A stretch of DNA of 64,000 nt from Bacteroidales bacterium (GTDB lineage: Bacteria > Bacteroidota > Bacteroidia > Bacteroidales > Marinilabiliaceae): assembly GCA_024401365.1 (NCBI GenBank), contig JAKSLE010000001.1:186001-250000 (forward strand). Reading direction: 5' to 3'. Shown piece after piece: positions 3,554 through 60,789 of the stretch (the first letter of the stretch is position 1; every line of letters starts with the position of its first letter). The notes under the pieces are model-generated. The model worked only from the letters and a program-made list of their open reading frames with translations. It was not told the DNA's origin and searched no databases. Position numbers and translations under genes: made by a program.

Positions 3554-3587
3554 TATAAGGGAGATATAAGGTTGCTCGCAGTTTTTT
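3554..3587 (+). repeat. Dispersed intergenic element, copy A
   Basis: TATAAGGGAG box followed after 7 nt by the invariant core GTTGCTCGCAGTTTTTT (3571-3587), plus orientation. It sits between convergent genes. It is one of nine copies in the window. Confidence 0.85.
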
Positions 3588-3671
3588 AATTATTGACTGA
3601 TTTATTGGAGAGTGGAGAAATGGTATTTTTGGGGGAAGAAAGAGATACGTTTGGGGTAGGTATATAATACG

Positions 3672-3710
3672 ACAACCCTCCTATCAGAGAGAACTGACAG
3701 GAGGGGTTGT
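3672..3710. terminator. Long hairpin between convergent genes
   Basis: The arm at 3672-3686 (ACAACCCTCCTATCA) pairs with 3695-3710 over about 15 bp with one bulge and a G-U pair, around an 8-nt loop. There is no strong T run on either side, but it lies directly after the minus-strand outer membrane gene and probably stops or stabilises its transcript. Confidence 0.6.
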
Positions 3711-3766
3711 TATATAAAAAAGGGGGAATTATATTCTAGGGAGCTTAGGATTTGCCTATTTAGATA

Positions 3767-4507
3767 TTATTTGATCAACCAGCAAAGACCCGCCTCGATG
3801 TTCCAGTTATCTGCCAATTGCTTTAAATTGCGGTTAGAATACCTTGTTGTAGACAAATCGAGTTGGAGACGTGGAAGGATTTGATAAGCAAGAGCCACTC
3901 CGATGTAATAGGTATTATATACATGATTAGCCATACCATCGCAATAGAACTCGGCAGAGAGAGACAACTTATCGTTGAGAGACCTACCAGCTGCCAAAGC
4001 AACGGTAGAGATGAAAGTATCATCGCCCTTAGTAGTACGTGTAGCGGCATTAGCCGACATAGACCAATTCTCGTTAAGTTTGACAGAATATAGGAGGGCG
4101 AGTGCGCCACTAGGGTCGTTGTCATCCACGGGAAAGCTAAACTTAGGAAGGACGGAGAACTTGGTATTATTCTTTTCGATCAATCCGATTTTTGCTGCAA
4201 GAGAAAGATTAGAACAATGGAATCCACCATCGTAAATAGATTCGGTAGCACTAAAGCGGCCCTCTATACGATCAGTAAAGCCGAAACGCAAAGTAGACGT
4301 ATTGACGGTAGTAATACTACCCAAGTTGTCGTATGCGACACCCGTTTCGAGCAACAAAGATTTTTTACCCACGAGAGAAGCTGAAGTTGTATATCCAGGG
4401 CGACCAGAAGGCATGTATACGCTCTCTGTCTCCTGGGCGTAGAGATTGATGACCGGTGTAAGCAAGAGGATTGCTACGGAAAGGAAAGTGAATTTTGTTG
4501 ACTTCAT
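3767..4507 (-). CDS. Outer membrane beta-barrel protein, transporter-like (MetA-pathway/phenol-type barrel)
   Basis: A 246-residue protein with a cleavable signal peptide (hydrophobic LSVAILLLTPVINLYAQ, predicted cut near the AQ) followed by alternating aromatic and polar strands (for example LLLETGVAYDN and IEAGLCWLIK) ending near the C-terminus, as expected of an outer membrane barrel. The GRPGYTTSASLVGKKSLLLETG start resembles the 'putative MetA-pathway of phenol degradation' transporter-like barrels common in Bacteroidetes. The substrate is unknown. It lies 54 bp downstream of priA on the same strand and could be read from that operon. Confidence 0.65.
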   Translation of the reverse strand: MKSTKFTFLSVAILLLTPVINLYAQETESVYMPSGRPGYTTSASLVGKKSLLLETGVAYDNLGSITTVNTSTLRFGFTDRIEGRFSATESIYDGGFHCSNLSLAAKIGLIEKNNTKFSVLPKFSFPVDDNDPSGALALLYSVKLNENWSMSANAATRTTKGDDTFISTVALAAGRSLNDKLSLSAEFYCDGMANHVYNTYYIGVALAYQILPRLQLDLSTTRYSNRNLKQLADNWNIEAGLCWLIK

Positions 4508-4561
4508 TATGATTAGATATTTATTTACATATTTAATAAACTACCATAGAAAAGCAGACAA

Positions 4562-7030
4562 TCAATACGGATCCACATCTACGACCACTGAGACACCCTT
4601 GAAGGCATGGTCGGAGAGAACAATATTTATGCGATCCATGAGAAGCTGCTTAAACTTCTGAGGATTAGCCTTTTTCTCCATTTTCACTATTATGCGCTGG
4701 AGGTAGAAATTCTGCATTCTTGCGATAGTTGGCGACTGAGGGCCTAGGATACGGTTACCAAACAACTGTGTAAGTTCGCGAGCCAATATACAAGCCGAAT
4801 TATAGGCAGTCTGCTCATCGACATGCTTGACGGTAATATGTATAAGGCGGACGAACGGAGGGTAGCCATACTGCTGACGCTCAGCCAGTTCACGTTGTGC
4901 GTTAGCCTTATAATCGCTACTGATACTATTCTGGACGACAGGAGAATCCACCTGTTTAGTCTGGAGCAGCACCTGTCCGCGTATACCACGACGGCCAGCT
5001 CGGCCTGAGACCTGAGAAATCATAGCGAAAGCTCGTTCGTATGCGCGGAAGTCGGGCAGATTCAGCATACTATCCACGTTGAGTATGCCCACTGTAGTAA
5101 CGCGATCGAAATCCAGCCCCTTACTAATCATCTGAGTACCGATAAGGATATCGTAATTATACTTTTCGAAATCGGAAATTATCTGTTCGAAAGCCTTGCG
5201 AGTACGAGCCGTATCCAAGTCCATACGTACCACGCGAGCATCTGGGAACTGCTCCTTGACCTCCTCCTCTATTTTCTCGGTGCCATATCCCTGAAGTTCG
5301 AGAGATGCATTGCCACAAGCTGGGCAAGTCATAGGCAATTTAGCGCGAGCGCCGCAATAATGGCATACCAATTCGCCAGTATTCTTATGGTACGTCATAG
5401 AGACATCGCAATTGATGCACTTAGCCGTCCAAGCGCACTGGTGGCACTCCACGTAGGGGGCGAATCCACGGCGATTCTGGAATAGGATGACCTGCTCCTT
5501 ATTAGACAAAGCCTTTAATATACGGTCGCGCAAAGCGAAAGAAAAGATACCCTTAACCTCCTTATGTTTACGAGCCACGGTCATATCAATAGTCTCCACA
5601 TGAGGCAATGCCACATCGGCATAGCGGGTTGTAAGCTCCACGTAACCATACATACCCGTTTGGGCGTTATTATAGCTCTCGAGAGAAGGCGTTGCGCTAC
5701 CAAGGAGCACTTTAGCCTGGTGAATACCAGACATAACCACTGCCATATCACGAGCGTTGTATCGTGGGGCTGGGTCGTACTGTTTAAAAGACGACTCATG
5801 CTCCTCATCGACAATTATCAAGCCCAAGTCGCGGAAAGGGAGCAAGACAGCAGAACGCACTCCCAGTATCAAGCCATAAGGCTTATTACTCAAGAGATTA
5901 TTCCACAATTCGACACGTTGTGCGTCGTTGAATTTAGAATGATATATACCCAAAGTATCACCGAAATGCTTTTGGAGGCGAGACGTAATCTGCGTAGTAA
6001 GTGCGATTTCGGGGAGGAGATAGAGGACCTGTTTACCCTGCTCCAAAGCCCTATGGATGAGATGGATATATATTTCTGTTTTGCCAGAACTTGTAACGCC
6101 GTTCAACAAGACGACGCGTTTATTATCCTTATAGAACGAATTATTTATTTCGTCGAAAGCCTTAGCCTGAGCCTCGGACAAGTCGTGAGGAGGGATAAGA
6201 TTATCCAGTTTAGGTTTCAGTCGGCTCACAGGCACCTTTTCGCAAGCCAAGATATCCTTTTTAACAAGTTCATTAAGGACTGTAGGAGAAATACCCTTTT
6301 TAGTCAGATCATCCTTTTTGACCAACTGTCCTATTTGAGCCTGACCCAAGCCGCCGCCGATTTGCAAGTAAGACATAAGAGCCTCGAGCTGTTTAGGGGC
6401 GCGTTGAAGTGCATCCATACGAGAAAGCAACAACTCCTCGTCATTGCGGCAAGCATCAGAGAGGCGGTAGACCGATTCTGTTTTCGGCTTATAAGCATCT
6501 CGCAACTCCTCGGAGATGTAAATAGCATCCATTTCGAGAAGTTTTTTCAGTTGAGGTAAAGGGTTAGCCCCCTCGAGGTGAGCAGTCAGTTCGCTGATAG
6601 TACACGTTTTCTGTTGCTCAATATAATTAAGTATCATCTCCTGTCGCTCGGTGAGAGGGACAGAAGCCTCGAAGAGAGTATTATATAGCAGATGCGTTTC
6701 GCTCTCCAGTTTAAGTCCAGAAGGCATAGCCGCCTTATAGACCTCGCCAAGAGAACACACATAGTAATCGGCCAACCAATGCCACAATTGCAGTTGGCGT
6801 TCAGTAACTATAGGTTCTGTATCGACTACGGCATCGATAGATTTTGCCTTGTACTCCACCGGTTCTGGGACGTTGAGAGTGTGGACTATAGCCGAATAGC
6901 TCTTTTTTCGTCCGAACTGCACTACAACGCGAGAACCCACAGATATGCAAGGCTGCAACTCTGTGGGTACGCTATAAGTAAACAGTTTCGCTATAGGAAC
7001 TGGCAGTATTACATCGACAAACATTGGCAA
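4562..7030 (-). CDS. priA: Primosomal protein N' (replication restart helicase PriA)
   Basis: An 822-residue superfamily 2 DNA helicase that reloads the replisome at stalled forks. The N-terminal DNA-binding region begins MPMFVDVILPVPIAKLFTY. Walker A is NGVTSSGKTEIY and the Walker B box is VDEEHESSFKQYDP. The zinc-binding insert is complete, with paired cysteines in CHQCAWTAKCINC and CHYCGARAKLPMTCPAC. The helicase C-terminal part carries GTQMISKGLDFDRVT and QVSGRAGRRG. It ends in a normal PriA C-terminus, so it appears full length. It starts 18 bp after ftsH on the same strand. Confidence 0.96.
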   Translation of the reverse strand: MPMFVDVILPVPIAKLFTYSVPTELQPCISVGSRVVVQFGRKKSYSAIVHTLNVPEPVEYKAKSIDAVVDTEPIVTERQLQLWHWLADYYVCSLGEVYKAAMPSGLKLESETHLLYNTLFEASVPLTERQEMILNYIEQQKTCTISELTAHLEGANPLPQLKKLLEMDAIYISEELRDAYKPKTESVYRLSDACRNDEELLLSRMDALQRAPKQLEALMSYLQIGGGLGQAQIGQLVKKDDLTKKGISPTVLNELVKKDILACEKVPVSRLKPKLDNLIPPHDLSEAQAKAFDEINNSFYKDNKRVVLLNGVTSSGKTEIYIHLIHRALEQGKQVLYLLPEIALTTQITSRLQKHFGDTLGIYHSKFNDAQRVELWNNLLSNKPYGLILGVRSAVLLPFRDLGLIIVDEEHESSFKQYDPAPRYNARDMAVVMSGIHQAKVLLGSATPSLESYNNAQTGMYGYVELTTRYADVALPHVETIDMTVARKHKEVKGIFSFALRDRILKALSNKEQVILFQNRRGFAPYVECHQCAWTAKCINCDVSMTYHKNTGELVCHYCGARAKLPMTCPACGNASLELQGYGTEKIEEEVKEQFPDARVVRMDLDTARTRKAFEQIISDFEKYNYDILIGTQMISKGLDFDRVTTVGILNVDSMLNLPDFRAYERAFAMISQVSGRAGRRGIRGQVLLQTKQVDSPVVQNSISSDYKANAQRELAERQQYGYPPFVRLIHITVKHVDEQTAYNSACILARELTQLFGNRILGPQSPTIARMQNFYLQRIIVKMEKKANPQKFKQLLMDRINIVLSDHAFKGVSVVVDVDPY

Positions 7031-7048
7031 TGCATTTTAGGGAGGATA

Positions 7049-9070: not shown

Positions 9071-9092
9071 GTGTGAATACAGTTATTCTTAT

Positions 9093-9449: not shown

Positions 9450-9487
9450 ATTATATATGTATGTTGATTCTAAGTTAATGATTAGCT

Positions 9488-11911: not shown

Positions 11912-11939
11912 TGTTGGGTATTCTATTTATCTATTGGGA

Positions 11940-11947
11940 CAAAGATA
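11940..11947 (-). promoter_or_regulatory. Likely -7 box of the lon promoter
   Basis: Read on the minus strand this is TATCTTTG, matching the Bacteroidetes -7 consensus TAnnTTTG, 28 nt before the lon TTG start. No clear -33 TTTG was found at the right distance, so the call is moderate. Confidence 0.5.
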
Positions 11948-12092
11948 CATAAACTTTGCGAGGGAACAGATACTTTGGTCAAAAATATAGCAAAGAAGCC
12001 CAGAAGGGAGAAATTTAATGCATAAATATACAATGATTGCATATTGCAGACAGATGAAAATAAGATTTAACAAATAAATTAGGGGATATTGG

Positions 12093-12122
12093 TTTGATAT
12101 TGAAACAATTTATCTAACTTTG
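12093..12122 (+). promoter_or_regulatory. Promoter for the candidate small RNA
   Basis: TTTG at 12093-12096, an 18-bp spacer and TAACTTTG at 12115-12122 fit the Bacteroidetes TTTG/TAnnTTTG promoter. The spacer is slightly short. No ORF follows on this strand, which is why an RNA is proposed. Confidence 0.6.
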
Positions 12123-12126
12123 CAGA

Positions 12127-12330
12127 TGAATTATTATTCATTCGTATTGATTAATACGGGTGAAGATTGCGCTGGTATACGGTTAACCAAACTAATTGAC
12201 TAAAACCAAAGAAATGAGACTGAGGTGCGAGCCTCGGTTGCACGACAAAACGTGTAACAGCGTAAATAGAGGTATATAAGTTGTTATGAATGACAGAGGG
12301 TCGTGGCGTGATGCTCGACCCTTTGTTTGT
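12127..12330 (+). ncRNA. Candidate structured small RNA with intrinsic terminator
   Basis: The predicted transcript of about 200 nt begins just after a consensus promoter. TCATTCGTA (12138-12146) can pair with TATGAATGA (12285-12293), closing the molecule. Two inner hairpins follow one another: CTGAGG/CCTCGG (12220-12237) and GTTGCACG/CGTGTAAC (12237-12258), the second perfect apart from one G-U pair. A terminator follows. Paired ends plus a terminator resemble 6S-type RNAs, but I cannot identify the family. No open reading frame of note lies within it. Confidence 0.55.
12297..12330 (+). terminator. Terminator of the candidate small RNA
   Basis: AGGGTCG (12297-12303) pairs with CGACCCT (12316-12322) around a 12-nt loop, followed by the T-rich TTGTTTGTC. 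The T tract is interrupted by G but the stem is strong. Confidence 0.65.
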
Positions 12331-12397
12331 CTATATATATCACTGATAATGAGAGAGTGATGGGAAGAAGCTAACAAGCGGGAAGGTATAGGGAGGT

Positions 12398-12430
12398 TAT
12401 AGAGAGCATAGAGGTTGCTCGCAGTTTTTT
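12398..12430 (+). repeat. Dispersed intergenic element, copy B
   Basis: TATAGAGAGCATAGAG followed directly by the core GTTGCTCGCAGTTTTTT (12414-12430), plus orientation. Both flanking protein genes are on the minus strand; only the candidate RNA upstream is on the same strand. Confidence 0.85.
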
Positions 12431-12479
12431 ATTTTAGCGCGGACGTCGAAATAGATGTGAAAGACGACGCTAGACGGCA

Positions 12480-13436
12480 TTATTGAGCATCGGGCATAGT
12501 TTTTTCTGCCAGCAGAGAAGCCAGATAGACCTGCTCTGCCTGTCCCTTAGTAGGAGTCAGCACTGCTCGGTCCAAGGCGTTGAGGATATAGAGATCCATT
12601 ATGGTAGTATAACCCGAATGAGAATAGACATGCTGAGCCCGCTGGATGAAATGGGCTATTTCGGGAGCAGAAGCATTGGGGTAGCAATTGTAATTAGGGT
12701 TATTATTATCTATACCACCTATGAGCACACTAGGTGCGTCGTGTGTGGTTAGTGGCTGTGTTAAGGGAGCGTTAAGAGAAGATTCATACTCCCTTCGGGT
12801 TTTACGAGGGCCAGTTATGATATGCAAGCTATAGATATCTAAAGGGGCATTTTTCACCTTATACTCGGCATAGCGAGACAGAGGACCCACGTAGAACAAT
12901 CGGGATTTAACGCGACAAGATGCAGTAGAGAGCGAACCCGCCAAGCGATGATCGGGGAAATCGGGGACTATGCAGAAATTGAACTTCGACAAGAGGCGAG
13001 CTATACCCCAAGAGACCACGTGGCGAATCAAAGCAGGGCAAGAGGTCCACGGGATAGGCGAAAGTTGGTGCGTAATAATCGCCGTAGGGCACGATGAAGA
13101 GTACAACCCGTATCGATTGTCGGATATCACCATATCGATATTATGCTCTCTTACAACTCTCCGGAGGGCCATATGCTCCCGCAAGATACAGAAGAAAAAA
13201 TAAGGCAATTGGAGCGTTATAGCCAAAGGCAGAGGCAGCCAAGAAGGCACCCAAGGAGAAAAAGATGACAAATTGACAGTAGGCAAGTGAGGGAACTCAC
13301 TCTGGAGCAACTGCAAAGAATCGCCCGAGCCGGCAAGAAGCACCTCATTGTGGTGAGCCAAGAGGTGTTTGACGACTGCTGCGGAGCGAGAGGCGTGGCC
13401 CAAGCCCCAATCAAGGGGTGAGATGAGGATACGCAT
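12480..13436 (-). CDS. MurG-like glycosyltransferase (GT28 type)
   Basis: A 318-residue protein from the ATG at 13436, chosen because MRILISPLDWGLGHASRS opens the glycine-rich N-terminal sugar-acceptor domain; the frame is open further upstream but that stretch is hydrophobic and non-conserved. The C-terminal GGIDNNN region, SHSGYTTIMDLYILN and PTKGQAEQVYLA resemble the donor-nucleotide site of MurG/GT28 enzymes. The C-terminus ends shortly after the QAEQ motif, shorter than MurG. The acceptor is unknown. It is divergent from the DUF1232 gene. Confidence 0.7.
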   Translation of the reverse strand: MRILISPLDWGLGHASRSAAVVKHLLAHHNEVLLAGSGDSLQLLQSEFPHLPTVNLSSFSPWVPSWLPLPLAITLQLPYFFFCILREHMALRRVVREHNIDMVISDNRYGLYSSSCPTAIITHQLSPIPWTSCPALIRHVVSWGIARLLSKFNFCIVPDFPDHRLAGSLSTASCRVKSRLFYVGPLSRYAEYKVKNAPLDIYSLHIITGPRKTRREYESSLNAPLTQPLTTHDAPSVLIGGIDNNNPNYNCYPNASAPEIAHFIQRAQHVYSHSGYTTIMDLYILNALDRAVLTPTKGQAEQVYLASLLAEKTMPDAQ

Positions 13437-14614: not shown

Positions 14615-14740
14615 GTCAAATAGAATAATGTTATGAGGCAAAAGTATAAAAGAATTTGGACTTAACACGATACTTGGAACAAAAGAGAAGTCAGATTCAC
14701 GAATAGTCGGTCGTTATTAGGCTTCAGCATAGTCGCTGTC

Positions 14741-14773
14741 TATATAGAGTCTCCTTGTTGCTCGCAGTTTTTT
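14741..14773 (+). repeat. Dispersed intergenic element, copy C
   Basis: TATATAGAGTCTCCTT followed by the core GTTGCTCGCAGTTTTTT (14757-14773), plus orientation. Both neighbouring genes are on the minus strand and no plus-strand transcript is evident, so this copy is antisense to its surroundings. Confidence 0.85.
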
Positions 14774-16607: not shown

Positions 16608-18161
16608 ATGAACAAGAAACTATGGGGAATGGCGGTGTTGCTCCTTATGATTGGGCAATCATCTGCATTTTCCCAATATGGCGACCATCGAAACAGACAT
16701 GAAGATTCGTTAGAAGTCGTTTTGCACACCCAAGAACTTACTCCCCAAGAGAAAGTGCGCACCCTCTCGAACCTTATGTGGGGGTTTTTACAGACAGACG
16801 GTGAAAAATCGAAGAGATATGCATGGCAATTAATAGAGCATGCGCAGAAGTACGATTTTGCGCTAGCTGAAAGTGACGCCTATAGGATATTGGGGCAGCA
16901 CGAATATGCCAGTGGGCAGCATTTCAGAGCGGACAGTCTATTTCAGTGTTCGCAGAGAGCCATAGAAAAGATGAAGACGTTGGATGAATACACTGAATCG
17001 GACGTTGACAACATGCAATCGACGCTCTGGGGAGCCATAGCCAACAATGAAAATGTTCAGGGGAAGTCGGCAGAAGCCATTGATCATTACGAAAAGATGC
17101 TTAATCTGCTGATTAAGCACAACTGGAAAGAGAATCAGGCAATACTCTTTTATAATATAGGAGAGTTATACTTAGAATTAAAAGACCTTGAAAATGCGAC
17201 AAAAAGCTATCAAAAAGCTGAAGAAATAGCAGAAGCGACAGGAGATTCGCTTATTTTAGCTATAACCAAGAAAGGAACTGTGTCTCTGTTGATAGCACAA
17301 GGAGAATATGGGAAGGCTTTGGAAGAGTCACGTCAATCGCTAGAATATTTTCAGAGGCATAGAGAAGAAAGAGAAAGTGAGAATGAGGTACTTACCACGC
17401 AAGTAGAGGCACTAGAGAAGATTAACAGTCAGGCTCACACTATAAATATTATTGGCTACATACTTGTGGTGGCGTTGGCATGCGTTATAGTCATGGCATT
17501 CTTCCTTATGAAACAACAGAAAAAGAGAGCCGAGAGTGAGAAGAAATTAGCTGAGATTAGGGCCACTATAGCTGGAGAGACAGAAGAGAGAACCAGACTT
17601 GCCAAAGATTTGCACGACGGCATAGGCAGTATGCTCACGGCGGTAAGGATAAATCTTGAGTCGTTTCAGCAGCACCTCACTGACACTATGCCCGGTGAGA
17701 GTCTAGAGCAGACATACGTAGTACTTGACAAAGCCAGAACAGAGCTAAGACGAGTGGCGCATCACCTTATGCCAGATGCTCTTCAGAAAAACGGTCTTGA
17801 TGCGGCGTTGAGCGATTTCTGCAGATGTACGCCTAAAGTCAACTATTTTTCCACTGGGTACAAACCGATGGACAGTGAAATGGAAAAAATGCTATATTTG
17901 GTAACGCATGAGCTAGTAAACAACGCTCTCAAGCACGCCAACGCCGACAACATAGAAGTGCAACTACTTCAGGATGAGCAACAAATATCCATCACGGTCA
18001 GTGACGACGGTTGCGGCATGAGCAAAGAGACGGTTGACCGCGGCATGGGACTTAACAATATTAAAGAGCGCATAGCGGTCTACAGCGGGCGCATGTCGGT
18101 AGACAGTGTACAGGGCGAAGGCACGGAGATATTAATCACATTACCATATAAAGGAATATGA
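16608..18161 (+). CDS. TPR-containing sensor histidine kinase (HisKA_3 type)
   Basis: A 517-residue protein from the ATG at 16608 (MNKKLWGMAVLLL). It has a signal sequence, then periplasmic tetratricopeptide-like helices (AILFYNIGELYLELKDLENA and neighbours), a coiled coil, a transmembrane helix (IIGYILVVALACVIVMAFFL) and a NarX/DesK-type kinase. The phospho-acceptor His is in KDLHDGIGSML; the ATPase domain has THELVNNALKHA (N box), DDGCGMS and GMGLNNIKERI (G boxes). It overlaps the response regulator by ATGA, indicating translational coupling. The signal is unknown; the divergent lipoprotein is a likely target. Confidence 0.88.
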   Translation: MNKKLWGMAVLLLMIGQSSAFSQYGDHRNRHEDSLEVVLHTQELTPQEKVRTLSNLMWGFLQTDGEKSKRYAWQLIEHAQKYDFALAESDAYRILGQHEYASGQHFRADSLFQCSQRAIEKMKTLDEYTESDVDNMQSTLWGAIANNENVQGKSAEAIDHYEKMLNLLIKHNWKENQAILFYNIGELYLELKDLENATKSYQKAEEIAEATGDSLILAITKKGTVSLLIAQGEYGKALEESRQSLEYFQRHREERESENEVLTTQVEALEKINSQAHTINIIGYILVVALACVIVMAFFLMKQQKKRAESEKKLAEIRATIAGETEERTRLAKDLHDGIGSMLTAVRINLESFQQHLTDTMPGESLEQTYVVLDKARTELRRVAHHLMPDALQKNGLDAALSDFCRCTPKVNYFSTGYKPMDSEMEKMLYLVTHELVNNALKHANADNIEVQLLQDEQQISITVSDDGCGMSKETVDRGMGLNNIKERIAVYSGRMSVDSVQGEGTEILITLPYKGI

Positions 18162-25911: not shown

Positions 25912-25935
25912 GGACTGTTTCTGGGTAGCGTGTGA

Positions 25936-25969
25936 TATAAGTGAGGGTATTGGTTGCTCGCAGTTTTTT
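25936..25969 (+). repeat. Dispersed intergenic element, copy D
   Basis: TATAAGTGAGGGTATTG followed by the core GTTGCTCGCAGTTTTTT (25953-25969), plus orientation. GTGAG can pair with CTCGC of the core. It is the first of two tandem copies 55 bp apart. Confidence 0.85.
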
Positions 25970-25991
25970 TATTATGTAGGTAGTTGCTGTG

Positions 25992-26023
25992 TATATAGAG
26001 CATAGCTGTTGCTCGCAGTTTTT
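25992..26023 (+). repeat. Dispersed intergenic element, copy E
   Basis: TATATAGAGCATAGCT followed by GTTGCTCGCAGTTTTT (26008-26023, five T residues then C), plus orientation. It lies 76 nt before tRNA-Ser, upstream of its promoter. Confidence 0.82.
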
Positions 26024-26054
26024 CATTTAACGGCGATATTTTTTTGCTTCAAAA

Positions 26055-26086
26055 TTTGCAAAGAGGACATATTTGGTATATCTTTG
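26055..26086 (+). promoter_or_regulatory. Promoter of tRNA-Ser
   Basis: TTTG at 26055-26058, a 20-bp spacer and TATCTTTG at 26079-26086 match the Bacteroidetes promoter fully. The tRNA begins 14 nt later. Confidence 0.75.
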
Positions 26087-26099
26087 CACCGTCATTCAA

Positions 26100-26182
26100 G
26101 GAGAGATGGCAGAGTGGTCGATTGCACCGGTCTTGAAAACCGGCGTACGAGAGTACCGGGAGTTCGAATCTCTCTCTCTCCG
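26100..26182 (+). tRNA. tRNA-Ser (anticodon TGA)
   Basis: The acceptor arm GGAGAGA (26100-26106) pairs with TCTCTCC (26175-26181), followed by discriminator G. The anticodon loop CTTGAAA gives anticodon TGA. A long variable arm (around CGTACGAGAGTACCG) marks it as a class II serine tRNA, and the T arm is GGGAG-TTCGAAT-CTCTC. CCA is not encoded. It has its own promoter and terminator. Confidence 0.95.
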
Positions 26183-26186
26183 CAGA

Positions 26187-26222
26187 AAATCAAGTATCAG
26201 TTTGTGGTACTTGATTTTTTTA
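26187..26222 (+). terminator. Terminator of tRNA-Ser
   Basis: AAATCAAGTA (26187-26196) pairs with TACTTGATTT (26208-26217) around an 11-nt loop and runs into a T tract. Confidence 0.85.
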
Positions 26223-26252
26223 TTTTATGGGGTTGGAGAGACAGCACCACGT

Positions 26253-28988
26253 TTAGTGTGCATTCTGCAGATAATTCTCGTTAAAGAAGCTATCGTAGAT
26301 CAGATCTTTATCTACAGACAATATACGGACCTGCTCGACAGGGATAGCATACAACTGAGGCAATGGTCGGTCGGTGACTACCTCCTTCAAGAACTGCTGT
26401 TCGCGTACTGAGTAGAAATACTGCATTGCTGCCTGCTTATTAGCGAAGCCAAAGACTACGACAGCAGGGCGGCCCTCAAGAAGATTTACGATAGACAAAT
26501 CGTAGTCGTCAAGCAAGAAGTTGGTAAAATTATAATCAGCGACCCTATACTGAGCTCTATTCTGAGCATCCTTATCGACTATGATGACCACTGCATGAGG
26601 GGAATCGGGCTTATACTCGTACATTATCTTAGAATCTACGCTAGCAGACTCGATAGACTCGAAATCGCGCTTATCAGCCAAAGGCGACTTATACTCCTCG
26701 TGTGCCACGGGGCTCTTACCCTGAGCCAGCATAGCCAAGAAGCTCTGAGCCAAGGTATCCTCGGGCGTATTGGTATACTTTGCTGTAATATCGCGCAAAT
26801 CGGCTTCGAAAGAGATTCGGTTGCCCATTTTGGCATTAGACAATGCTCGTACCAACAAGTACTTAGAGTGATAATCAGACTCGGCATCCGACTTCAAGGC
26901 ATCAGAAGCTATATTCTGAGCGTTGGCATACTCACCTGTAAGGTAGGCATTGTATGCAGACTTATAGAGGAGCTCGTGAGCCTCGAGTTTTGCATCTGCG
27001 CTTGCGAAATAACTCTTTGCGCCCTGAGTGAGATAAGAAGCAAATTCGCTATTAGGGTACTCGTTACGGATTATGCTAGCTGTAGACTGAGCCAAAGAGC
27101 CATCGTTGTTCTTTGAAGCAGAGAAATACAACAATGTGAGGGCATCGTAACGATTATCTGTTTTAGGATAGCGGCGCAAAAGTTCAGAGAACTGCTTAGC
27201 GGCAGCCTTATAATCCCTGACATCATCGTACAATATGACACCCGACTTGAACAAGGATGATTCTACCTCTCCGTTACACTTCTCCTGAGCGGCAGGAGAC
27301 AATGGCAATCCTGCGAGGAGGGACTCCCTTGTGATAGTTTTAGTCTCAGAAGAGCCATCCGGTTCTGGCGTATCATCTGAGAACTGAGACTTTTCGCCAT
27401 TTGCGTCAAGATCATCAGGGTTCACCTTATTGTCACCCAAGGAGATATCATTAGAGCTCTTATCTACGCGACGCCAATCATCCTCATTAGCACGTCGTCC
27501 CCATTTCTGGATAAACGTCGACTTTCCAGCCTGAACCAAGGACGTATTATAGAAATACCACGACGACCTAGACGAGCCTGTAGCGGTACCAGATATTCTG
27601 TAGAAATCGGACTGAGACATACCCATAGACTCCTGAGCCTCACGTTGAGCCTCCAAAGCCTCCAAGCGTTCCTTTTCTTTAGAAAGGATATCATCGATAA
27701 AACGTTCACGCTCGCGCTCAGACATATTAGCGATACGCAACAAAGAGTCGTTATTCTGTATTATCTGCAATTCACGAACCAAAGGACGCAATAGAGATGC
27801 ACGAGACTGAGCCTGCTCCTTACGGAGATTAGTGACAGGCAAAAGTTGTGATGCACTATCGGCGTACATTCCCTCGGGCAGATAATCAGGCTCCAAGGCT
27901 GCGATATCAGACATTGCCCAATAAGACAAGCCACGTTGGTTATTATTTGACACACTACGATTGACGCTCTGACGGAAATAATTCTGCGCTTGAGGAATAT
28001 TGCCACGTGTCTGCTGAAGTTTACCCAACGCGTAAAAGATTTGATCGACATACTCCTCGTTCTTTACCTCGCGAGACATTTTGCGAAGAAGTTTCTCGGT
28101 AGCGATCATGTCAGCTTCAGTAACAGCCACGGTAGCCAGTTCCATTTTAGCGGCAAACGCCATATCGTAGTCGGCCATTGAGCGAGACAATTCCCTAAAC
28201 AACGGCACAGCCTTAGCAGGTTGGCCCACCTCGCGATAAACCTGAGCCAAGATATATTTCAATCTACGCACGTCGGCTCTTGCGCCACCCTCCTTTATTG
28301 CGCTCTCCAAGAATGGGATAGCCTCGGCGTACTCACCCAGCTCCAAGCAGATATTAGCGCGGGCACGCTGATAATCGAAATAAAGATCAGAAGGGGCGAG
28401 ACCATCGAGGTCGTATGAATCCAATGCGCCTTTAGCCGTGGCGAATTGAGATATCTGGGAACAAGCTATAGCCTTCCATATAAGAGACTCATACGCGGCA
28501 TGCTCCGAAGGGAATTTCTGATGTACGTAATCCAGCACCTTGAAAGCCTCCTGCTCGTCGTGGCGAACGACATTAGCCTGGCCCATGAGGAGGTAAGCCT
28601 CTGCCACGTAGGGGTTATATTCATCTTTGAGCTGCATTGCTCGCTGACGAGGGGTAGGATTATCCTGACGTTTAGGTTTGACGGTAATACTATGCAGTTC
28701 GACCAGTTTATGCGCTTTTTTCAGAGCAGACTCCATATCGCCTGAAGCAGGCTTAGCGTTCTGAGCAGAAGCGAACTTATAGACGGGGAGGATGCGAGAG
28801 TAGTCCTCCTTGACAGAAGTATTGATTTTATCGAGGCCCGAATTAAATGCTTCCTTGCCGTTGAAATAGACATTATAATGCGATGTCATTCGTTGATAAC
28901 CGCGCGAAAGCCATGTATTGTGCTGAGTTGAGCATCCTGCTACAATCAACACAATAGAAAGAAGAACAAATATATATCTAGTTTTCAA
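26253..28988 (-). CDS. Type IX secretion lipoprotein, PorW/SprE-like TPR protein
   Basis: A 911-residue lipoprotein with the signal peptide MKTRYIFVLLSIVLIVAGC and the characteristic CSTQHNTWLSRGYQRMTSHY followed by NVYFNGKEAF, which I recognise from PorW/SprE. Many tetratricopeptide-like helices follow (for example YVAEAYLLMGQANVVRHDE and AQNYFRQSVN). A charged low-complexity segment lies near residues 480-570 and a conserved C-terminal domain closes the protein. PorW/SprE proteins sit at the outer membrane periplasmic face and are needed for type IX secretion. It is divergent from trpS, with no other secretion gene in the window. Confidence 0.85.
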   Translation of the reverse strand: MKTRYIFVLLSIVLIVAGCSTQHNTWLSRGYQRMTSHYNVYFNGKEAFNSGLDKINTSVKEDYSRILPVYKFASAQNAKPASGDMESALKKAHKLVELHSITVKPKRQDNPTPRQRAMQLKDEYNPYVAEAYLLMGQANVVRHDEQEAFKVLDYVHQKFPSEHAAYESLIWKAIACSQISQFATAKGALDSYDLDGLAPSDLYFDYQRARANICLELGEYAEAIPFLESAIKEGGARADVRRLKYILAQVYREVGQPAKAVPLFRELSRSMADYDMAFAAKMELATVAVTEADMIATEKLLRKMSREVKNEEYVDQIFYALGKLQQTRGNIPQAQNYFRQSVNRSVSNNNQRGLSYWAMSDIAALEPDYLPEGMYADSASQLLPVTNLRKEQAQSRASLLRPLVRELQIIQNNDSLLRIANMSERERERFIDDILSKEKERLEALEAQREAQESMGMSQSDFYRISGTATGSSRSSWYFYNTSLVQAGKSTFIQKWGRRANEDDWRRVDKSSNDISLGDNKVNPDDLDANGEKSQFSDDTPEPDGSSETKTITRESLLAGLPLSPAAQEKCNGEVESSLFKSGVILYDDVRDYKAAAKQFSELLRRYPKTDNRYDALTLLYFSASKNNDGSLAQSTASIIRNEYPNSEFASYLTQGAKSYFASADAKLEAHELLYKSAYNAYLTGEYANAQNIASDALKSDAESDYHSKYLLVRALSNAKMGNRISFEADLRDITAKYTNTPEDTLAQSFLAMLAQGKSPVAHEEYKSPLADKRDFESIESASVDSKIMYEYKPDSPHAVVIIVDKDAQNRAQYRVADYNFTNFLLDDYDLSIVNLLEGRPAVVVFGFANKQAAMQYFYSVREQQFLKEVVTDRPLPQLYAIPVEQVRILSVDKDLIYDSFFNENYLQNAH

Positions 28989-29124: not shown

Positions 29125-30120
29125 ATGGAAAGCGTAGTGAGCGGCATCAGGCCGACAGGAAACTTGCACTTAGGCAACTATTTCGGAGCAGTAACCAGTT
29201 TCGTAAAAATGCAGGACGATTATGACTGCAAATTCTTCATTGCAGACTGGCACTCTTTGACGACACACCCAAAGCCTGAAGACATTCAAGCGTCAACAAA
29301 TACAATCCTTGCAGAGTACTTGGCATGTGGAATTGACCCAGAGAAGTCGGTAATCTATATGCAAAGTGACGTTCCAGAGGTATTGGAACTATACTTGTAC
29401 CTTAACATGAACACATATCTCGGAGAATTGGAGCGCGTAACCACATTCAAGGAGAAGGCGCGCAAGCAGCCAGACAACGTCAATGCAGGTTTGCTCACCT
29501 ACCCTACCCTTATGGCTGCGGACATTTTGTTGCATCGTGCTCTCAAGGTACCCGTAGGTAAGGATCAGGAGCAGAATATGGAGATGGCGCGCAAGTGTGC
29601 TCGTCGTTTCAACAACATATACGGTGTAGAATTCTTCCCAGAGCCACAATCGTTCTATTTTGCTAAAGAAGCTATAAAGATTCCAGGTCTTGACGGTTCG
29701 GGCAAGATGGGCAAGAGCGAAGGCAACTGTATATACCTTAAGGACGATGCCAAGACTATTGAGAAGAAGGTAAAGAAGGCTGTTACAGATGCCGGTCCAA
29801 CAGAGCCAAATTCGGAGAAGCCAGAAGTAATAAAGAATCTCTTTACATTCCTCAACATTGTATCGGCGCCTGAGACTGTACAATACTTTGAAGAGAAGTG
29901 GAATGACTGTTCGATACGTTATGGCGACCTTAAGAAGCAGTTGGCGCAAGACATCATTGGATATACAGAGCCAATACGTGAAAGAATCAACGAGTACTCT
30001 GCCGACAAAGACCTTTTGAGGAAGGTTGCTGAGCAAGGTGCTGAAAAAGCTCGTGAGAGTGCACGTAAGACATTGACAGAAGTTAGACAGATCATTGGCT
30101 TTAAGACTTCGAAATTTTAA
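29125..30120 (+). CDS. trpS: Tryptophanyl-tRNA synthetase
   Basis: A 331-residue class I synthetase. The ATG at 29125 (MESVVSGIRPTGNLHLGNYF) is preferred; a TTG at 29089 lies in a promoter-like AATTTTG sequence and adds nothing conserved. The HIGH-like box is GNLHLGNYFG and the KMSKS box is the variant GKMGKSEGN. It appears full length and ends before repeat F and a terminator. Confidence 0.95.
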   Translation: MESVVSGIRPTGNLHLGNYFGAVTSFVKMQDDYDCKFFIADWHSLTTHPKPEDIQASTNTILAEYLACGIDPEKSVIYMQSDVPEVLELYLYLNMNTYLGELERVTTFKEKARKQPDNVNAGLLTYPTLMAADILLHRALKVPVGKDQEQNMEMARKCARRFNNIYGVEFFPEPQSFYFAKEAIKIPGLDGSGKMGKSEGNCIYLKDDAKTIEKKVKKAVTDAGPTEPNSEKPEVIKNLFTFLNIVSAPETVQYFEEKWNDCSIRYGDLKKQLAQDIIGYTEPIRERINEYSADKDLLRKVAEQGAEKARESARKTLTEVRQIIGFKTSKF

Positions 30121-30171
30121 ATCTGCCGATAAAGACTGAGCTATCTGTTCTCGGCGAGTATACTTTCTGCA

Positions 30172-30204
30172 TATAGGGAGATTACTTGTTGCTCGCAGTT
30201 TTTT
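30172..30204 (+). repeat. Dispersed intergenic element, copy F
   Basis: TATAGGGAGATTACTT followed by the core GTTGCTCGCAGTTTTTT (30188-30204), plus orientation, between the convergent trpS and alpha-galactosidase genes. It is the last plus-oriented copy. Confidence 0.85.
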
Positions 30205-30236
30205 ATAATGCGAGGTGTCGAGATCAGATAAAAAAT

Positions 30237-30267
30237 AAAAAGGCGAGGAGTAAATCCCCGCCTTTTT
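30237..30267. terminator. Bidirectional terminator between trpS and the GH36 gene
   Basis: AAAAAGGCGAGGA pairs with TCCCCGCCTTTTT (one A-C mismatch) around a short loop. T runs are available on both strands, so it can serve both convergent operons. Confidence 0.85.
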
Positions 30268-30285
30268 CTATTTAGGTATCATACT

Positions 30286-38510: not shown

Positions 38511-38675
38511 ATGGGGAAATTATTTGCTATAGCCAATCTATTTAAACCAAAGGACAAACTTTCGGACTCCGACCAATTGAAGAAAAAGATTTTTCTCTAT
38601 TCTTTGGCAGAAACCGGACTGATTGTTCTTTTGTTCGCGTTCTCGTTTTTCCTTTTCAGAGTACTCGTAGGCTAA
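38511..38675 (+). CDS. Small single-pass membrane protein, 54 residues
   Basis: The ORF encodes a charged N-terminal half (FKPKDKLSDSDQLKKKIF) and one C-terminal transmembrane helix (TGLIVLLFAFSFFLFRVLVG). It follows a -7 promoter box by 7 nt and its stop overlaps the convergent kdtA stop by 4 bp. No family is recognised. The promoter, composition and fit into the gap support it, but its small size leaves doubt. Confidence 0.5.
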   Translation: MGKLFAIANLFKPKDKLSDSDQLKKKIFLYSLAETGLIVLLFAFSFFLFRVLVG

Positions 38676-43355: not shown

Positions 43356-43389
43356 AAAAAACTGCGAGCAACAAGTACACTCCAACTAC
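43356..43389 (-). repeat. Dispersed intergenic element, copy G
   Basis: On the minus strand GTAGTTGGAGTGTACTT precedes the core GTTGCTCGCAGTTTTTT (43372-43356). It lies just downstream of dxr. Further upstream (43410-43399) it shares TAGTCTCTGTAT with copy H. It is the first minus-oriented copy. Confidence 0.83.
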
Positions 43390-43412
43390 TCAGCCTTAAT
43401 ACAGAGACTACT

Positions 43413-44570
43413 TTACAACTTTGCCAAAATGGCCTCTTCTGCTATCTTCCTGCACTCGGCATCGCATTGCATATAATCGTCCAACGAAGGATCCGCAACA
43501 AACGGTGTCTTTGCCATTACAGTTCTGATAACGTCCGACATGCCCACAAACGAAACGCGCTCTTCCAAGAATGCTTTTACCGCTACCTCATTGGCAGCAT
43601 TCATGGCACAAGGTACGTTTCCTCCCTTCTCCATCGCATCAAATGCTATCTGAAGATTCTGGAAAACCGCTCTGTCTGGATACTCAAATGTCAGGTTGGA
43701 ATGTGCAGCAAAATCCAATGGCGCAGCAGGACACGCTATCCTGTCCGGATAGGTCAGCGCATATTGTATAGGAAGTCGCATATCTGGCATTCCCATCTGC
43801 GCCTTTACACTGTTGTCCTCAAATTCTACCATCGAGTGTATTATCGATTGCGGATGTACCACAATCTTTATCTTTGAAGGTGGACACGAAAACAACCACC
43901 TGGCTTCTATACTCTCAAGCCCTTTGTTCATCAGCGAAGCCGAATCTATCGTTACCTTCGCTCCCATATTCCAGTTAGGATGCTTCAACGCCTGCGCCGG
44001 AGTAACATTCTCCAATTGCGCACGTGTCCACCCCCTGAATGGACCGCCCGACGCAGTGAGTATGATAGTCTTCGGCGTCAGATGTCGCTCTCCATTCAAA
44101 CATTGGAATATCGCCGAATGCTCACTGTCTACAGGCAAAATAGGTACCTGATTCATAGCGGCTTGCTGCATGACAAGCTGACCTGCCACTACAAGTGTCT
44201 CTTTATTGGCTAATGCTATAGGCTTATGGGCCTTAATGGCAGCTAATGTCGGACGAAGCCCTGCAAAACCTACCATGGCAGCTAAAACAATGTCTACACA
44301 GTCTAGCGTTACCACTTCTTCTATGGCCTTCGCTCCCGCATATACCTTTATAGGTAAGGATTCTAACCTCTTCTTGAGTTCCGCCCACTTGCTTTCATCT
44401 CCTATTACTACAATATTTGGCTTGAACTCTCTGGCTTGCAATTCTAATAAATCAATATTTGTACCAGCAACAAGTATCTCAGCAGCAAACTTGTCTGGAT
44501 GCATCCTCACAATATCCAATGTCTGCTTGCCTATCGAACCTGTCGAACCTAATATAGCTATTCTCTTCAT
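43413..44570 (-). CDS. dxr: 1-deoxy-D-xylulose 5-phosphate reductoisomerase
   Basis: A 385-residue enzyme of the non-mevalonate isoprenoid pathway that makes methylerythritol phosphate using NADPH. The N-terminal nucleotide loop is ILGSTGSIGKQTLDIV, the catalytic loop region is LTASGGPFRGW, and metal and substrate binding are in PVDSEHSAIFQ and KVTIDSASLMNKGLE. Length and C-terminus are normal. It starts 25 bp after the M23 peptidase gene on the same strand. Confidence 0.96.
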   Translation of the reverse strand: MKRIAILGSTGSIGKQTLDIVRMHPDKFAAEILVAGTNIDLLELQAREFKPNIVVIGDESKWAELKKRLESLPIKVYAGAKAIEEVVTLDCVDIVLAAMVGFAGLRPTLAAIKAHKPIALANKETLVVAGQLVMQQAAMNQVPILPVDSEHSAIFQCLNGERHLTPKTIILTASGGPFRGWTRAQLENVTPAQALKHPNWNMGAKVTIDSASLMNKGLESIEARWLFSCPPSKIKIVVHPQSIIHSMVEFEDNSVKAQMGMPDMRLPIQYALTYPDRIACPAAPLDFAAHSNLTFEYPDRAVFQNLQIAFDAMEKGGNVPCAMNAANEVAVKAFLEERVSFVGMSDVIRTVMAKTPFVADPSLDDYMQCDAECRKIAEEAILAKL

Positions 44571-54007: not shown

Positions 54008-54008
54008 C

Positions 54009-54710: not shown

Positions 54711-54832
54711 TACGATAAATGTTTATGTAGTTAGTTTTTGATTTTACTTGTTGGATTTATTTCCTGTTTCTGTTCTCTTTTTCGGTCGAAGTCCTTTGTT
54801 TGTTTCGCATTATCAACTTTTTTAGCACTATT

Positions 54833-54867
54833 TTTGACGAACTGCACTTATCGTTTGACGAACTGCA
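54833..54867. promoter_or_regulatory. Tandem 14-bp direct repeat, probable LytTR-type operator
   Basis: TTTGACGAACTGCA occurs exactly at 54833-54846 and again at 54854-54867, a 21-bp period (two helical turns). On the minus strand each copy reads GCAGTTCGTC, close to the known LytTR consensus (CAGTTNGT core, two sites about 21 bp apart). It could control the minus-strand gene at 54710 or, less likely, the PBP1A operon. Confidence 0.5.
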
Positions 54868-55013
54868 TTCAGAGTGTAAAATAATGTTAAAGACAGCTCT
54901 TAGCTAACTCCCTAAAACTCCATTCTGCCCCGTAATACTGAGACTCTTACACTTTTGTTACATTTATTCCAATGTTTTTTATTCAAACCGCCCCTCAAAG
55001 ATTGCTTTTTAAC

Positions 55014-55048
55014 AAAAAACTGCGAGCAACCTTAACTCTCACACTATA
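55014..55048 (-). repeat. Dispersed intergenic element, copy H
   Basis: On the minus strand TATAGTGTGAGAGTTAAG precedes the core GTTGCTCGCAGTTTTTT (55030-55014). TGTGAG can pair with CTCGCA of the core over 6 bp. It is the only copy between divergent genes. Confidence 0.85.
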
Positions 55049-55247
55049 CAGAGACTACCCAGACACTCTCCCGACCACACCCTCACACATCCCATCATTA
55101 TTACATTTCACCGCCTTTTTCATAACCTCCACGCCTCCTAATAGCGTCCCAAGGAGCATCGACCATACTTTATAATAAAAGAGTGTAGGATTTCGCCACA
55201 AAAAAGACTACCTTTACAACCGAATATAAACACTATATTTTTCTGCC

Positions 55248-57725: not shown

Positions 57726-57741
57726 ACGCAACTGAGTGTCT

Positions 57742-58839: not shown

Positions 58840-58844
58840 TACCC

Positions 58845-59834
58845 ATGAACGCCCGTAAATTATTATTGCCTATATCATGGCTATATGGTATCGCTGTCGA
58901 TACTATCGGGCTGTTGTATGATTCAGGATTCAAAAAGGCTATCCCTGCTCCCGTCCGTACCGTATGCGTAGGAAACCTGACTGTAGGCGGAACAGGGAAA
59001 ACGCCTATTACGGAGTACCTGATAGATAAACTCCAATCTCACGGACTGAAAGTCGCCATGCTTAGCCGAGGATACCGCCGTAAGACTAAGGGTCTCCAAG
59101 TGGCTACTGAGCACTCTACCGTCTATGATATAGGTGATGAGCCTATGCAAATACATAAACGCCACCCTCATATCCCTATAGTGGTGGATGGCGACCGCAA
59201 CCGAGCACTGAATTATATTAAGCAGAATATGCCTGATGTCAATATCGTAATCATGGACGATGGCATGCAACATAGGTCTACTATCGCTTCTGAATATATC
59301 CTTGTATGCGATTACGCTAGACCTATATATAATGACACCCTCTTGCCCGCTGGCAATCTGCGAGAGCATTGGAGCGCAAGACGCCGCGCTAATACTATAA
59401 TCGTCAATAAGTGTCCGCTCAATATCAGCGAGCACGAAATGTCGGAAATAAAACGAAAACTTAAACTGGACGATCGCCAGAGACTATATTTCACCGGAAT
59501 TGAGTACCAGGAACTTATAGGTTCCGACTGCCCTACCCACAAGGCCTTGGCTATAGCCGGCATCGGACGCCCAGCCCCTTTCTTCGAGGAGATACGCCGC
59601 CGCTATGGCTCCGATACGGAGTGCATAGCCTATGGCGACCACCATAAATTCACCGACAAGGAGCTGAATACTATAAAAGATAAATTGGATGCTCTTGGTG
59701 ATGAGTCAATATTGATATGTACCGAAAAAGATGCTCAGCGTCTAAGTAACAAAATCGGCTCTCACTCAGTATGCTATCTACGAATAGGTCTTCGAATCCT
59801 CGGAGGTCCTTCTTTTGATATCGTCGAAATTTAA
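58845..59834 (+). CDS. lpxK: Tetraacyldisaccharide 4'-kinase
   Basis: A 329-residue membrane-associated kinase that phosphorylates the lipid A precursor. The P-loop is GNLTVGGTGKTPITE, followed by LSRGYRRKTKG and the conserved IMDDGMQHR. The N-terminal helix (LLLPISWLYGIAVDTIGLLY) associates with the inner membrane. It fits between the LPG-type membrane protein and the purine phosphorylase in one operon. Confidence 0.95.
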   Translation: MNARKLLLPISWLYGIAVDTIGLLYDSGFKKAIPAPVRTVCVGNLTVGGTGKTPITEYLIDKLQSHGLKVAMLSRGYRRKTKGLQVATEHSTVYDIGDEPMQIHKRHPHIPIVVDGDRNRALNYIKQNMPDVNIVIMDDGMQHRSTIASEYILVCDYARPIYNDTLLPAGNLREHWSARRRANTIIVNKCPLNISEHEMSEIKRKLKLDDRQRLYFTGIEYQELIGSDCPTHKALAIAGIGRPAPFFEEIRRRYGSDTECIAYGDHHKFTDKELNTIKDKLDALGDESILICTEKDAQRLSNKIGSHSVCYLRIGLRILGGPSFDIVEI

Positions 59835-59853
59835 TACGTAACAATATACTATC

Positions 59854-60672
59854 ATGATTAACAAGATAAAGGAAGCTGCTGCGTACCTTAAGTCGCAGTT
59901 CTCAGCACAGCCTCGAGTGGGCATCATACTTGGAACTGGTCTTGGTGGACTAGTCAACGAGATCAAAATCGAAAAGTCAATAGACTACAAGGAGATTCCT
60001 CACTTCCCTGTCTCTACAGTGGAGGGCCATAGCGGTCGCCTCATCCTTGGCACCATCGGCGGCGTACCAGTTCTAGCCATGCAGGGTCGTTTCCACTACT
60101 ACGAGGGATACACAATGCAGCAGGTTACTTTCCCTGCCCGCGTAATGAAGGTTTGCGGTATCAATACATTGTTCGTCTCTAACGCTAGTGGCGGTCTTAA
60201 CCCTTCTTTCAAAGTTGGAACAATCATGGTCATCAAGGACCATATCAATATGTTCGGCACTAATCCTCTTATCGGCCCTAATATGGCTGAGTTCGGCCCA
60301 CGTTTCCCAGATATGTCTGAGGTATACAGCAAGAGACTCCGCAAAAAGGCGTTCGAAATCGCAGAACGTGAGAATATACACCTCCTCGATGGCGTATACG
60401 TGGGTACCACTGGTCCTACATTCGAGACTCCTTCTGAGTACAAAATGTTCCGCCTCTTAGGCGCAGACGCAGTGGGTATGTCTACCGTTCCTGAGGTTAT
60501 AGTAGCCCATCACGCCGGCATGGAGGTATTCGGCGTATCTATCATTACCGATTCTGGAGTACCAGGAGAGATCGTAGAGGTCAGCCACGAAGAGGTTCAG
60601 AAAGTGGCCGCAGCCGCAGAGCCTAAAATGACAAAGATCATCGCTCAGTTGGTTCAGGAACTGGATAAGTAA
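59854..60672 (+). CDS. Purine nucleoside phosphorylase
   Basis: A 272-residue class I (trimeric) PNP that splits purine nucleosides to base and ribose 1-phosphate. The phosphate-binding loop is IILGTGLGGLV; other conserved parts are HFPVSTVEGHSGRL, MQGRFHYYEGYTMQ, the base-binding Glu in TGPTFETPSEY and VGMSTVPEVIVA. It is the last gene of the PBP1A operon, followed by a terminator at 60697-60731. The PNP-lpxK neighbourhood is common in Bacteroidetes. Confidence 0.95.
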   Translation: MINKIKEAAAYLKSQFSAQPRVGIILGTGLGGLVNEIKIEKSIDYKEIPHFPVSTVEGHSGRLILGTIGGVPVLAMQGRFHYYEGYTMQQVTFPARVMKVCGINTLFVSNASGGLNPSFKVGTIMVIKDHINMFGTNPLIGPNMAEFGPRFPDMSEVYSKRLRKKAFEIAERENIHLLDGVYVGTTGPTFETPSEYKMFRLLGADAVGMSTVPEVIVAHHAGMEVFGVSIITDSGVPGEIVEVSHEEVQKVAAAAEPKMTKIIAQLVQELDK

Positions 60673-60696
60673 ATCCTATTCTACATTAATATACAA

Positions 60697-60731
60697 GGGA
60701 GGAGGTCATACCACGACTTCCTCCTTTTTTT
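60697..60731 (+). terminator. Terminator of the PBP1A-lpxK-PNP operon
   Basis: GGAGGAGGTC (60698-60707) pairs with GACTTCCTCC (60715-60724) with one G-U pair, followed by seven T residues. Confidence 0.88.
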
Positions 60732-60755
60732 ATATGCCACACGTAGGCAATATTT

Positions 60756-60789
60756 AAAAAACTGCGAGCAACCTTAATGCTCTCTTATA
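60756..60789 (-). repeat. Dispersed intergenic element, copy I
   Basis: On the minus strand TATAAGAGAGCATTAAG precedes the core GTTGCTCGCAGTTTTTT (60772-60756). It lies between the convergent PNP and anion-symporter genes and between their two terminators. Confidence 0.85.

Follow-up and report, generated by a model that had tools for sequence, protein, structure and literature searches.

A clade-restricted family of dispersed 11-bp-unit repeats oriented with the GC-skew-inferred replication strand in a Bacteroidales genus

A short dispersed repeat was examined in the draft genome of a gut bacterium of the Bacteroidales, starting from nine copies in a 64-kb window (the whole stretch of DNA analyzed; positions 186,001-250,000 of contig 1). 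This genome (3.05 Mb, 87% complete, 76 contigs) is referred to as G000, and other genomes of the genus as G003, G008, G009, G010, G013 and so on. The nine copies described in an earlier examination of the letters of the window (the sequence-only reading) belong to a genome-wide total of 170 cores (up to two mismatches; 84 forward and 86 reverse, versus 2 for the backwards pattern), to which a second core subtype, TTCATCGYAR-T6, is to be added. The family was repeated in an 11-bp register, was restricted to a few members of the genus, occupied different sites in different species, included similar arrays at distant loci, and was oriented with the strand marked by GC skew. We propose, with confidence that is evenly balanced, that it represents a clade-restricted family of short, non-coding, non-autonomous, replication-oriented dispersed repeats, the copies of which arrive by a fork-coupled process.

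The arrays were composed of 11-bp units leading into a conserved end unit, TTGCTCGCAR or TTCATCGYAR, and then into a T tract; the linkers of the units were CTR and then GAR, with a variable word after each. The length of 34 bp initially given for the element was too short: the core is one unit within an in-register 11-bp array. The TATAAGNGAG-like box described upstream of the core was present, but was not a separate box, being part of the run of 11-bp units in the register of the core. When copies were aligned at the core (90 from G000, 85 from G013, 20 from G008 and 23 from G010), a T tract of 5-6 was followed by a short A/T-rich tail, and conservation faded approximately 22 bp past the core start. 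The GAR linker stood at positions -11 to -9 in 77/90, 76/85, 16/20 and 12/23 copies of G000, G013, G008 and G010, respectively, and the CTR linker at -22 to -20 in 57/90, 62/85, 9/20 and 1/23; G010, with weak counts for both, is therefore a poor fit to this linker scheme. Since the search pattern fixes the core in the aligned set, core conservation was judged from mismatch counts: among 91 core matches (up to three mismatches) in 843 kb of G000, 50 had none, 30 had one, seven had two and four had three, and the changes fell mostly at three positions.

The autocorrelation of the 67 upstream bases peaked at lags of 11 and 22 (0.352 and 0.356 in G000; 0.464 and 0.401 in G013). At a lag of 33, the value was 0.354 in G013 and 0.319 in G000 (in the latter not above that of lag 7), and other lags gave 0.22-0.32. 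Core spacings within tandem arrays were multiples of 11 bp in 17 of 17 cases in G000 and in 11 of 13 in G013 (exceptions: 67 and 89). The variable words differed between genomes, with TATAAG and TAGTT typical of G000, TATAAG and CCCTT of G013, ACTCGG of G008, and CCTAT of G010. Shared inverted ends were not noticed in the element sequences inspected, for which no dedicated search was run.

Orientation was analyzed in the same 843 kb (28%) of G000 and in parts of G013, using elements with up to one mismatch, which were merged when they lay on one strand within 250 bp of each other (72 groups in G000 and 52 in G013). Replication direction was inferred from GC skew, on unordered contigs, in windows of up to 30 kb from which element surroundings had been masked beforehand. 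Orientation agreed with intergenic skew in 60 of the 72 G000 groups (50 versus 5 where |skew| exceeded 0.1). For strand-balanced third-codon skew, 51 of 64 groups agreed, whereas for local gene direction only 38 of 72 did. Because neighboring groups share a skew window, the unthinned binomial p values (8e-9 for G000 and 1.3e-4 for G013) overstate the evidence, and thinned counts are safer; when thinned to one group per 40 kb (G000 only), 22 of 26 groups agreed (p 5e-4). Agreement in G013 was weaker: 40 of 52 groups with intergenic skew (27 versus 9 where it was strong) and 29 of 46 with strand-balanced third-codon skew. In the 100 kb examined of contig C46 of G013, there was one sign change, between 59.6 and 78.8 kb, beyond which the balanced skew was near zero. 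In the window, six cores pointed right and three left, as originally described, and the switch at 30.2 to 43.4 kb adjoined the peak of cumulative GC skew at 24-32 kb. The terminus was likewise placed by skew; dif was not found with a proteobacterial consensus, which gave 4 matches versus 2.4 expected.

Genes were taken from crude longest-open reading frame (ORF) calls, and groups inside these calls (15/72 in G000 and 6/52 in G013) were excluded from neighbor classes and kept in the skew and gene-bias counts. Among the 57 G000 groups outside ORF calls, the upstream gene was in sense in 33 and in antisense in 24; with both neighbors considered, 17 were sense-sense, 15 sense-antisense, 14 antisense-antisense and 10 antisense-sense, and in one, one of the two neighbors was unknown. 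The numbers in sense and in antisense to both neighbors did not differ significantly (p 0.72), and agreement with skew was retained in 10 of the 14 antisense-antisense groups as in 15 of the 17 sense-sense groups. Orientation follows the skew-inferred replication strand, not the flanking genes; it was neither random with respect to replication direction nor accounted for by the strand of transcripts, the two outcomes named in advance by the sequence-only reading as telling against its proposal.

That proposal also left room for an RNA role, in which GAG pairs with CTC before T6. A role in transcription termination or in RNA 3' processing, by way of this stem and the T6 after it, is the least probable of the explanations weighed here, and very far from likely. 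A T tract does follow the core and many copies lie just downstream of genes; however, sense-both and antisense-both groups were similarly frequent, there was no G+C-rich stem before the T tract, the sense orientation to the upstream gene was not kept, and several copies come after a separate hairpin terminator (judged by eye). The mean folding z values of 60 elements from each genome were close to those of shuffled sequences: -0.59 (sense) and -0.33 (antisense) in G000, and -0.11 and 0.06 in G013. Covariation was likewise absent: the top 28 mutual-information pairs spanned 1-3 bases in G000; in G013 they spanned 1-3 or 11, with one at 24 that was non-complementary. No pair pointed to a long-range stem, and an Rfam scan of the window matched a tRNA alone.

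The element was carried by four of the 15 genus genomes, with 170 copies in G000, 75 in G008, 69 in G010 and 150 in G013, and there were 0-2 copies in each of the other 11. A wider core pattern had 0-3 matches in each of 56 other genomes of the family, overall not exceeding its reversed control, and the 17-mer had 0-5 matches in 24 order-level genomes. The element was the leading dispersed sequence in the sampled parts of two carriers: 331 kb of G000 contained 32 14-mers at five or more loci, and 358 kb of G013 contained 110. No 14-mer reached five loci in samples of two non-carriers, G003 (315 kb, with a few at four loci) and G009 (160 kb). This result argues against a universal function served in close relatives by a substitute of similar length, and is blind to an 8-mer signal. 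A single-gene tree of seven genomes did not resolve the carriers as one clade or otherwise.

In wider searches, a 21-mer pattern was found in 33 stretches from three metagenome-assembled genome (MAG) assemblies (JAUNDI01 and two from horse faeces, JAKSLD01 and JAKSLC01), and a 25-mer query matched none of the named genomes. Viral carriage was considered and rejected: 19 IMG/VR stretches (14 distinct) matched the 17-mer, but one had GAR and another one CTR, and since none had both linkers in place the matches were taken as chance. No open-licence PMC paper naming the element in its title or at the start of its abstract was found, which leaves its absence in print unproven.

Sites differed between carriers, the matching stretches of which shared approximately 67-83% DNA identity with G000 (short RNA and repeat matches left out). 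At the tRNA-Ser locus, the two-core array of G000 had no counterpart in G013, G008 or G010. Conversely, G013 carried an element after the stop codon corresponding to window position 38674, where its intergenic stretch was 84 bp versus 3 bp in G000, and G008 had two elements between the apparent promoter and the start codon of an apparently folB-like gene. Where syntenic anchors were available on both sides, an element was missing from the other species in 8 of the 10 groups of G013 and in 3 of the 6 groups of G000; usable anchors were lacking for 66 of 72 groups in G000 and 42 of 52 in G013, largely because the comparison took in parts of the genomes only. The element beside the gene ending at window position 60672 pointed in the opposite direction in G013, with synteny broken beyond it. 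On contig C4 of G013, similar arrays at the distant positions of 51 kb and 67 kb were 91% identical over 159 bp, and on contig C3 two back-to-back composites of both core subtypes differed by one 11-bp unit (L315 approximately 2014-2112 and L316 approximately 1336-1445). These similarities point to copying plus the gain and loss of units.

They also bear on ordinary minisatellite drift, in which immobile 11-bp slippage repeats would have been spread by gene conversion and old duplication, and orientation would result from strand-specific slippage. This explanation would fit the occurrence of coreless 11-bp arrays in the same genomes, but slippage cannot yield a conserved 16-bp core that recurs at well over 100 genomic places; some between-locus copying is required. 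We regard drift of this type as highly improbable.

A breakpoint of synteny between G000 and G013 was observed at elements (window positions 11913-12480 and 30120-30286; L205 5680-5967). In G013, window position 30295 is joined to 11913 and an element separates the two; in G000, each of the corresponding junctions carries an element. A cobalamin riboswitch was also observed in G013 (L319 14825-15041).

In the reading that we favor, copies would arrive via a replication-fork process acting on one strand, either by insertion into the single-stranded lagging-strand template or by clamp- or fork-guided insertion. The core and T tract would be a fixed recognition end, and arrays would then gain or lose whole 11-bp units. 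Fork-coupled insertion of this type jointly accounts for the orientation, turnover, clade restriction and unit dynamics.

A number of results weigh against it. A mobilizer did not emerge: the Y1 transposase (PF01797) was found in one of the four carriers (G000) versus 4 of 11 non-carriers, RAYT-like genes in three carriers (G000, G008 and G013) versus 6 of 11, and reverse transcriptase in three carriers versus 4 of 11; a core with a T tract was present at none of the eight RAYT loci of carriers (1.9-3.7 kb each), and no gene family recurred next to elements beyond chance (best uncorrected p 0.010 for 31 clusters of at least three among 1,054 ORFs). A general target-site duplication did not emerge, AGGCTA being a candidate of 6 bp at a single site in G013, and one insertion had brought approximately 110 and 60 bp of non-element flank. 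No subterminal hairpin was found in four elements folded as DNA (z -0.93 to 1.31). Orientation disagreed with skew in 12 of 72 groups in G000 and 12 of 52 in G013, and in the latter also leaned with gene direction (31 of 52; 31 versus 19 where the bias was strong). Variation was far greater in the upstream words than in the core, a pattern like that around a selected binding site. Furthermore, some sites were common to both species, with the same orientation and diverged words (3 of 6 anchored groups in G000 and 2 of 10 in G013), although identity of the site is uncertain in two of the three G000 cases because the gap in G013 is 2.4-3.3 kb. Such sites could reflect selection keeping the element, with some anchors kilobases off. 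In one close shared pair, the core subtypes differed and the words were unrelated. As to a rule of insertion after T tracts, T runs upstream of first-of-array copies were mildly raised in G000, in some bins only.

RAYT, Y1 transposase and reverse transcriptase were set aside as mobilizers, their presence in genomes not tracking the element. The PF01797 model missed RAYT-like genes that a protein search found; the RAYT-like protein of G008 scored 51 bits with NCBIfam REP_Tyr_transpos (cut-off 80) and had no Pfam match at E 0.001. REP/REPIN-type repeats moved by resident RAYT transposases would be a candidate, given such genes in three carriers and repeats that are mostly intergenic, strand-biased and present in dozens to hundreds per genome. 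However, the element is neither a palindrome nor a hairpin, two of the eight carrier RAYT loci had a loose core match and this without a T tract, G010 (a 91% complete draft, from which a gene may have been missed) had its 69 copies with no RAYT match, and G002-G006 and G014 had RAYT matches without enrichment of the repeat. An origin of this type is improbable.

Two side observations concern these gene families. A RAYT-like transposase of G000 (L273, C76:91391-92104) was 96% identical in protein to that of G008 (L272, C195:36620-37333), while stretches of the two genomes are otherwise approximately 67-80% identical in DNA, which suggests a probably recent transfer. Reverse transcriptase loci (L266 and L271), presumably similar to those of diversity-generating retroelements, were nearly identical in G000 and G013, with similar neighboring ORFs.

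The strongest competitor is a polar chromosome-organizing signal, which we consider rather unlikely. A clade-specific protein would load on the core and spread along the array, and selection would keep the sites pointing to the terminus, in the manner of KOPS for FtsK or of a dispersed centromere-like array. The 11-bp direct repeats may resemble the iteron arrays of partition or replication proteins. The leading-strand orientation in two genomes, the conserved core in variable surroundings, and the shared syntenic sites that keep orientation and core despite diverged words are all consistent with a signal, as is the density at the two skew switches examined (9 cores in the window and 14 in 100 kb of G013 C46), the former being subject to ascertainment because the window was picked for its copies. 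On the other hand, the element is far longer and rarer than the KOPS octamers or those of the architecture imparting sequences (AIMS), is absent from 11 of the 15 genus genomes with no comparable repeat in 475 kb from two non-carriers, and most of its anchored sites are not common to carriers. These same observations of absence, site differences and a missing counterpart weaken the specific suggestions of the sequence-only reading (an FtsK-guiding, Chi-like or nucleoid-protein site), the replication-related polarity of which was nevertheless supported. A polar mark is the better account of the conserved core and of the few shared sites, and fork-coupled insertion that of the clade restriction and turnover. 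We rank fork-coupled insertion above the polar mark, and the two would be compatible if the repeat, once acquired, had been co-opted. As a tentative suggestion, DNA with no hairpin and no known transposase would lengthen behind its fixed core in 11-bp units, each approximately one helical turn, would spread between genes with a polarity set by the fork, and could also serve as a polar mark of each replichore in the clade that took it up; this would amount to a new kind of genomic element in bacteria.

The family was compared with known systems. BrickBuilt, a miniature inverted-repeat transposable element (MITE) of Porphyromonas gingivalis, has 23-nt units, 19 copies, a leader, a tail and short terminal inverted repeats (PMC4596501); the present element has the tandem-unit build in common with it, being intergenic and dispersed in a Bacteroidales host with imperfect tandem direct repeats in variable number, and differs in its 11-bp units, 170 copies, replication-strand orientation and no terminal inverted repeats that were noticed. 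As in REP sequences and REPINs with RAYT (PMC3116915), the repeats are short, lie outside genes, and have one conserved 16-bp stretch in variable surroundings; unlike these, they have no palindrome, hairpin or RAYT proximity, and their cores stand head-to-tail at multiples of 11 bp. The orientation of IS200/IS605 and of other single-strand and clamp-guided elements follows host replication (PMC5371812), and the orientation found here (60/72 and 40/52 groups; thinned 22/26) is common with them, but there was no transposase gene inside, no subterminal hairpins were found, and a Y1 match was limited to one of four carriers. KOPS and AIMS are octamers, which are described as occurring in nearly all genomes and as enriched toward the terminus (PMC5993296). 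A leading-strand bias and convergence at a skew switch are shared with them; in contrast, the present element is 50-60 bp, mostly intergenic, and found in 4 of 15 genus genomes, and thus not common to close relatives. The element consequently misses at least one tested defining feature of each of REPINs, BrickBuilt, IS200/IS605 derivatives, intrinsic terminators and KOPS/AIMS.

Replication-oriented dispersed sequences have usually been traced to hairpin-ended single-strand transposons or short segregation signals, and this family has the orientation, but neither hairpins nor a wide distribution. Differences in its sites between congeners are frequent enough to trace. The family could make testable how fork polarity enters intergenic DNA, by insertion or by selection.

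The elements of the window are as follows.
Element 1, 3527-3587, plus strand: 11-bp units and core 3571-3587; TRF array at 3539-3571 (period 11, 3 copies).
Element 2, 12370-12430, plus strand: 11-bp units and core 12414-12430; both flanking genes in antisense.
Element 3, 14713-14773, plus strand: upstream units and core 14757-14773; both flanking genes in antisense.
Element 4, 25912-25969, plus strand: first of the two units in a two-core array; core at 25953-25969.
Element 5, 25970-26024, plus strand: the other unit of this array, 55 bp long, with core 26008-26024 (C in place of the last T).
Element 6, 30144-30204, plus strand: units and core 30188-30204; convergent genes on either side.
Element 7, 43356-43412, minus strand: core 43356-43372.
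Element 8, 55014-55074, minus strand: core 55014-55030; divergent genes on either side.
Element 9, 60756-60816, minus strand: core 60756-60772; convergent genes on either side.

All nine cores were confirmed at the positions and strands first reported, eight of them perfect and that at 26008 with the T-to-C change already named. The window held nine core matches (up to three mismatches), versus 0.17 on average and never more than 1 in 100 shuffles. Their intergenic location held against long ORFs; a 91-aa ORF (26009-26284) that overlaps core 26008 is probably spurious because it also covers the tRNA-Ser gene. Cores 25953 and 26008 form a single tandem array with a 55-bp period. One copy had been regarded as the sole exception to a position in sense downstream of a transcript, but there were three: 12414 and 14757, each in antisense to both neighbors, and 55014, between divergent genes. 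Element 5 stands upstream of tRNA-Ser (26100-26183), the units of Element 7 start directly past the stop codon of 43413-44570, the gene for DXP reductoisomerase, and Element 9 comes directly after a hairpin-plus-T stretch that, judged by eye, resembles an intrinsic terminator.

Arrays of 11-bp units without the TTGCTCGCAG core were also observed, for example a repeated CTGTATTAAG turning into GAGTGTTAAG; nine were found in 843 kb of G000 and nine in 543 kb of G013, including the following.
L072, 2280-2332: coreless 11-bp array.
L073, 7915-7978: coreless 11-bp array.
L069, 18130-18193: coreless 11-bp array.
Away from cores, 11 was the commonest period among 6-18 in both genomes, and four coreless arrays folded as single-stranded DNA gave z values of -3.3 to 0.6. 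A longer dispersed repeat, with 11-bp units GTGCGTATGAY and then approximately 140 bp, occurred at L055 (approximately 16770-16981, minus strand) and L310 (approximately 5457-5710). It had no match in an Rfam search, and 174 of 182 aligned positions were identical between G000 and G013, at loci that are apparently unrelated.

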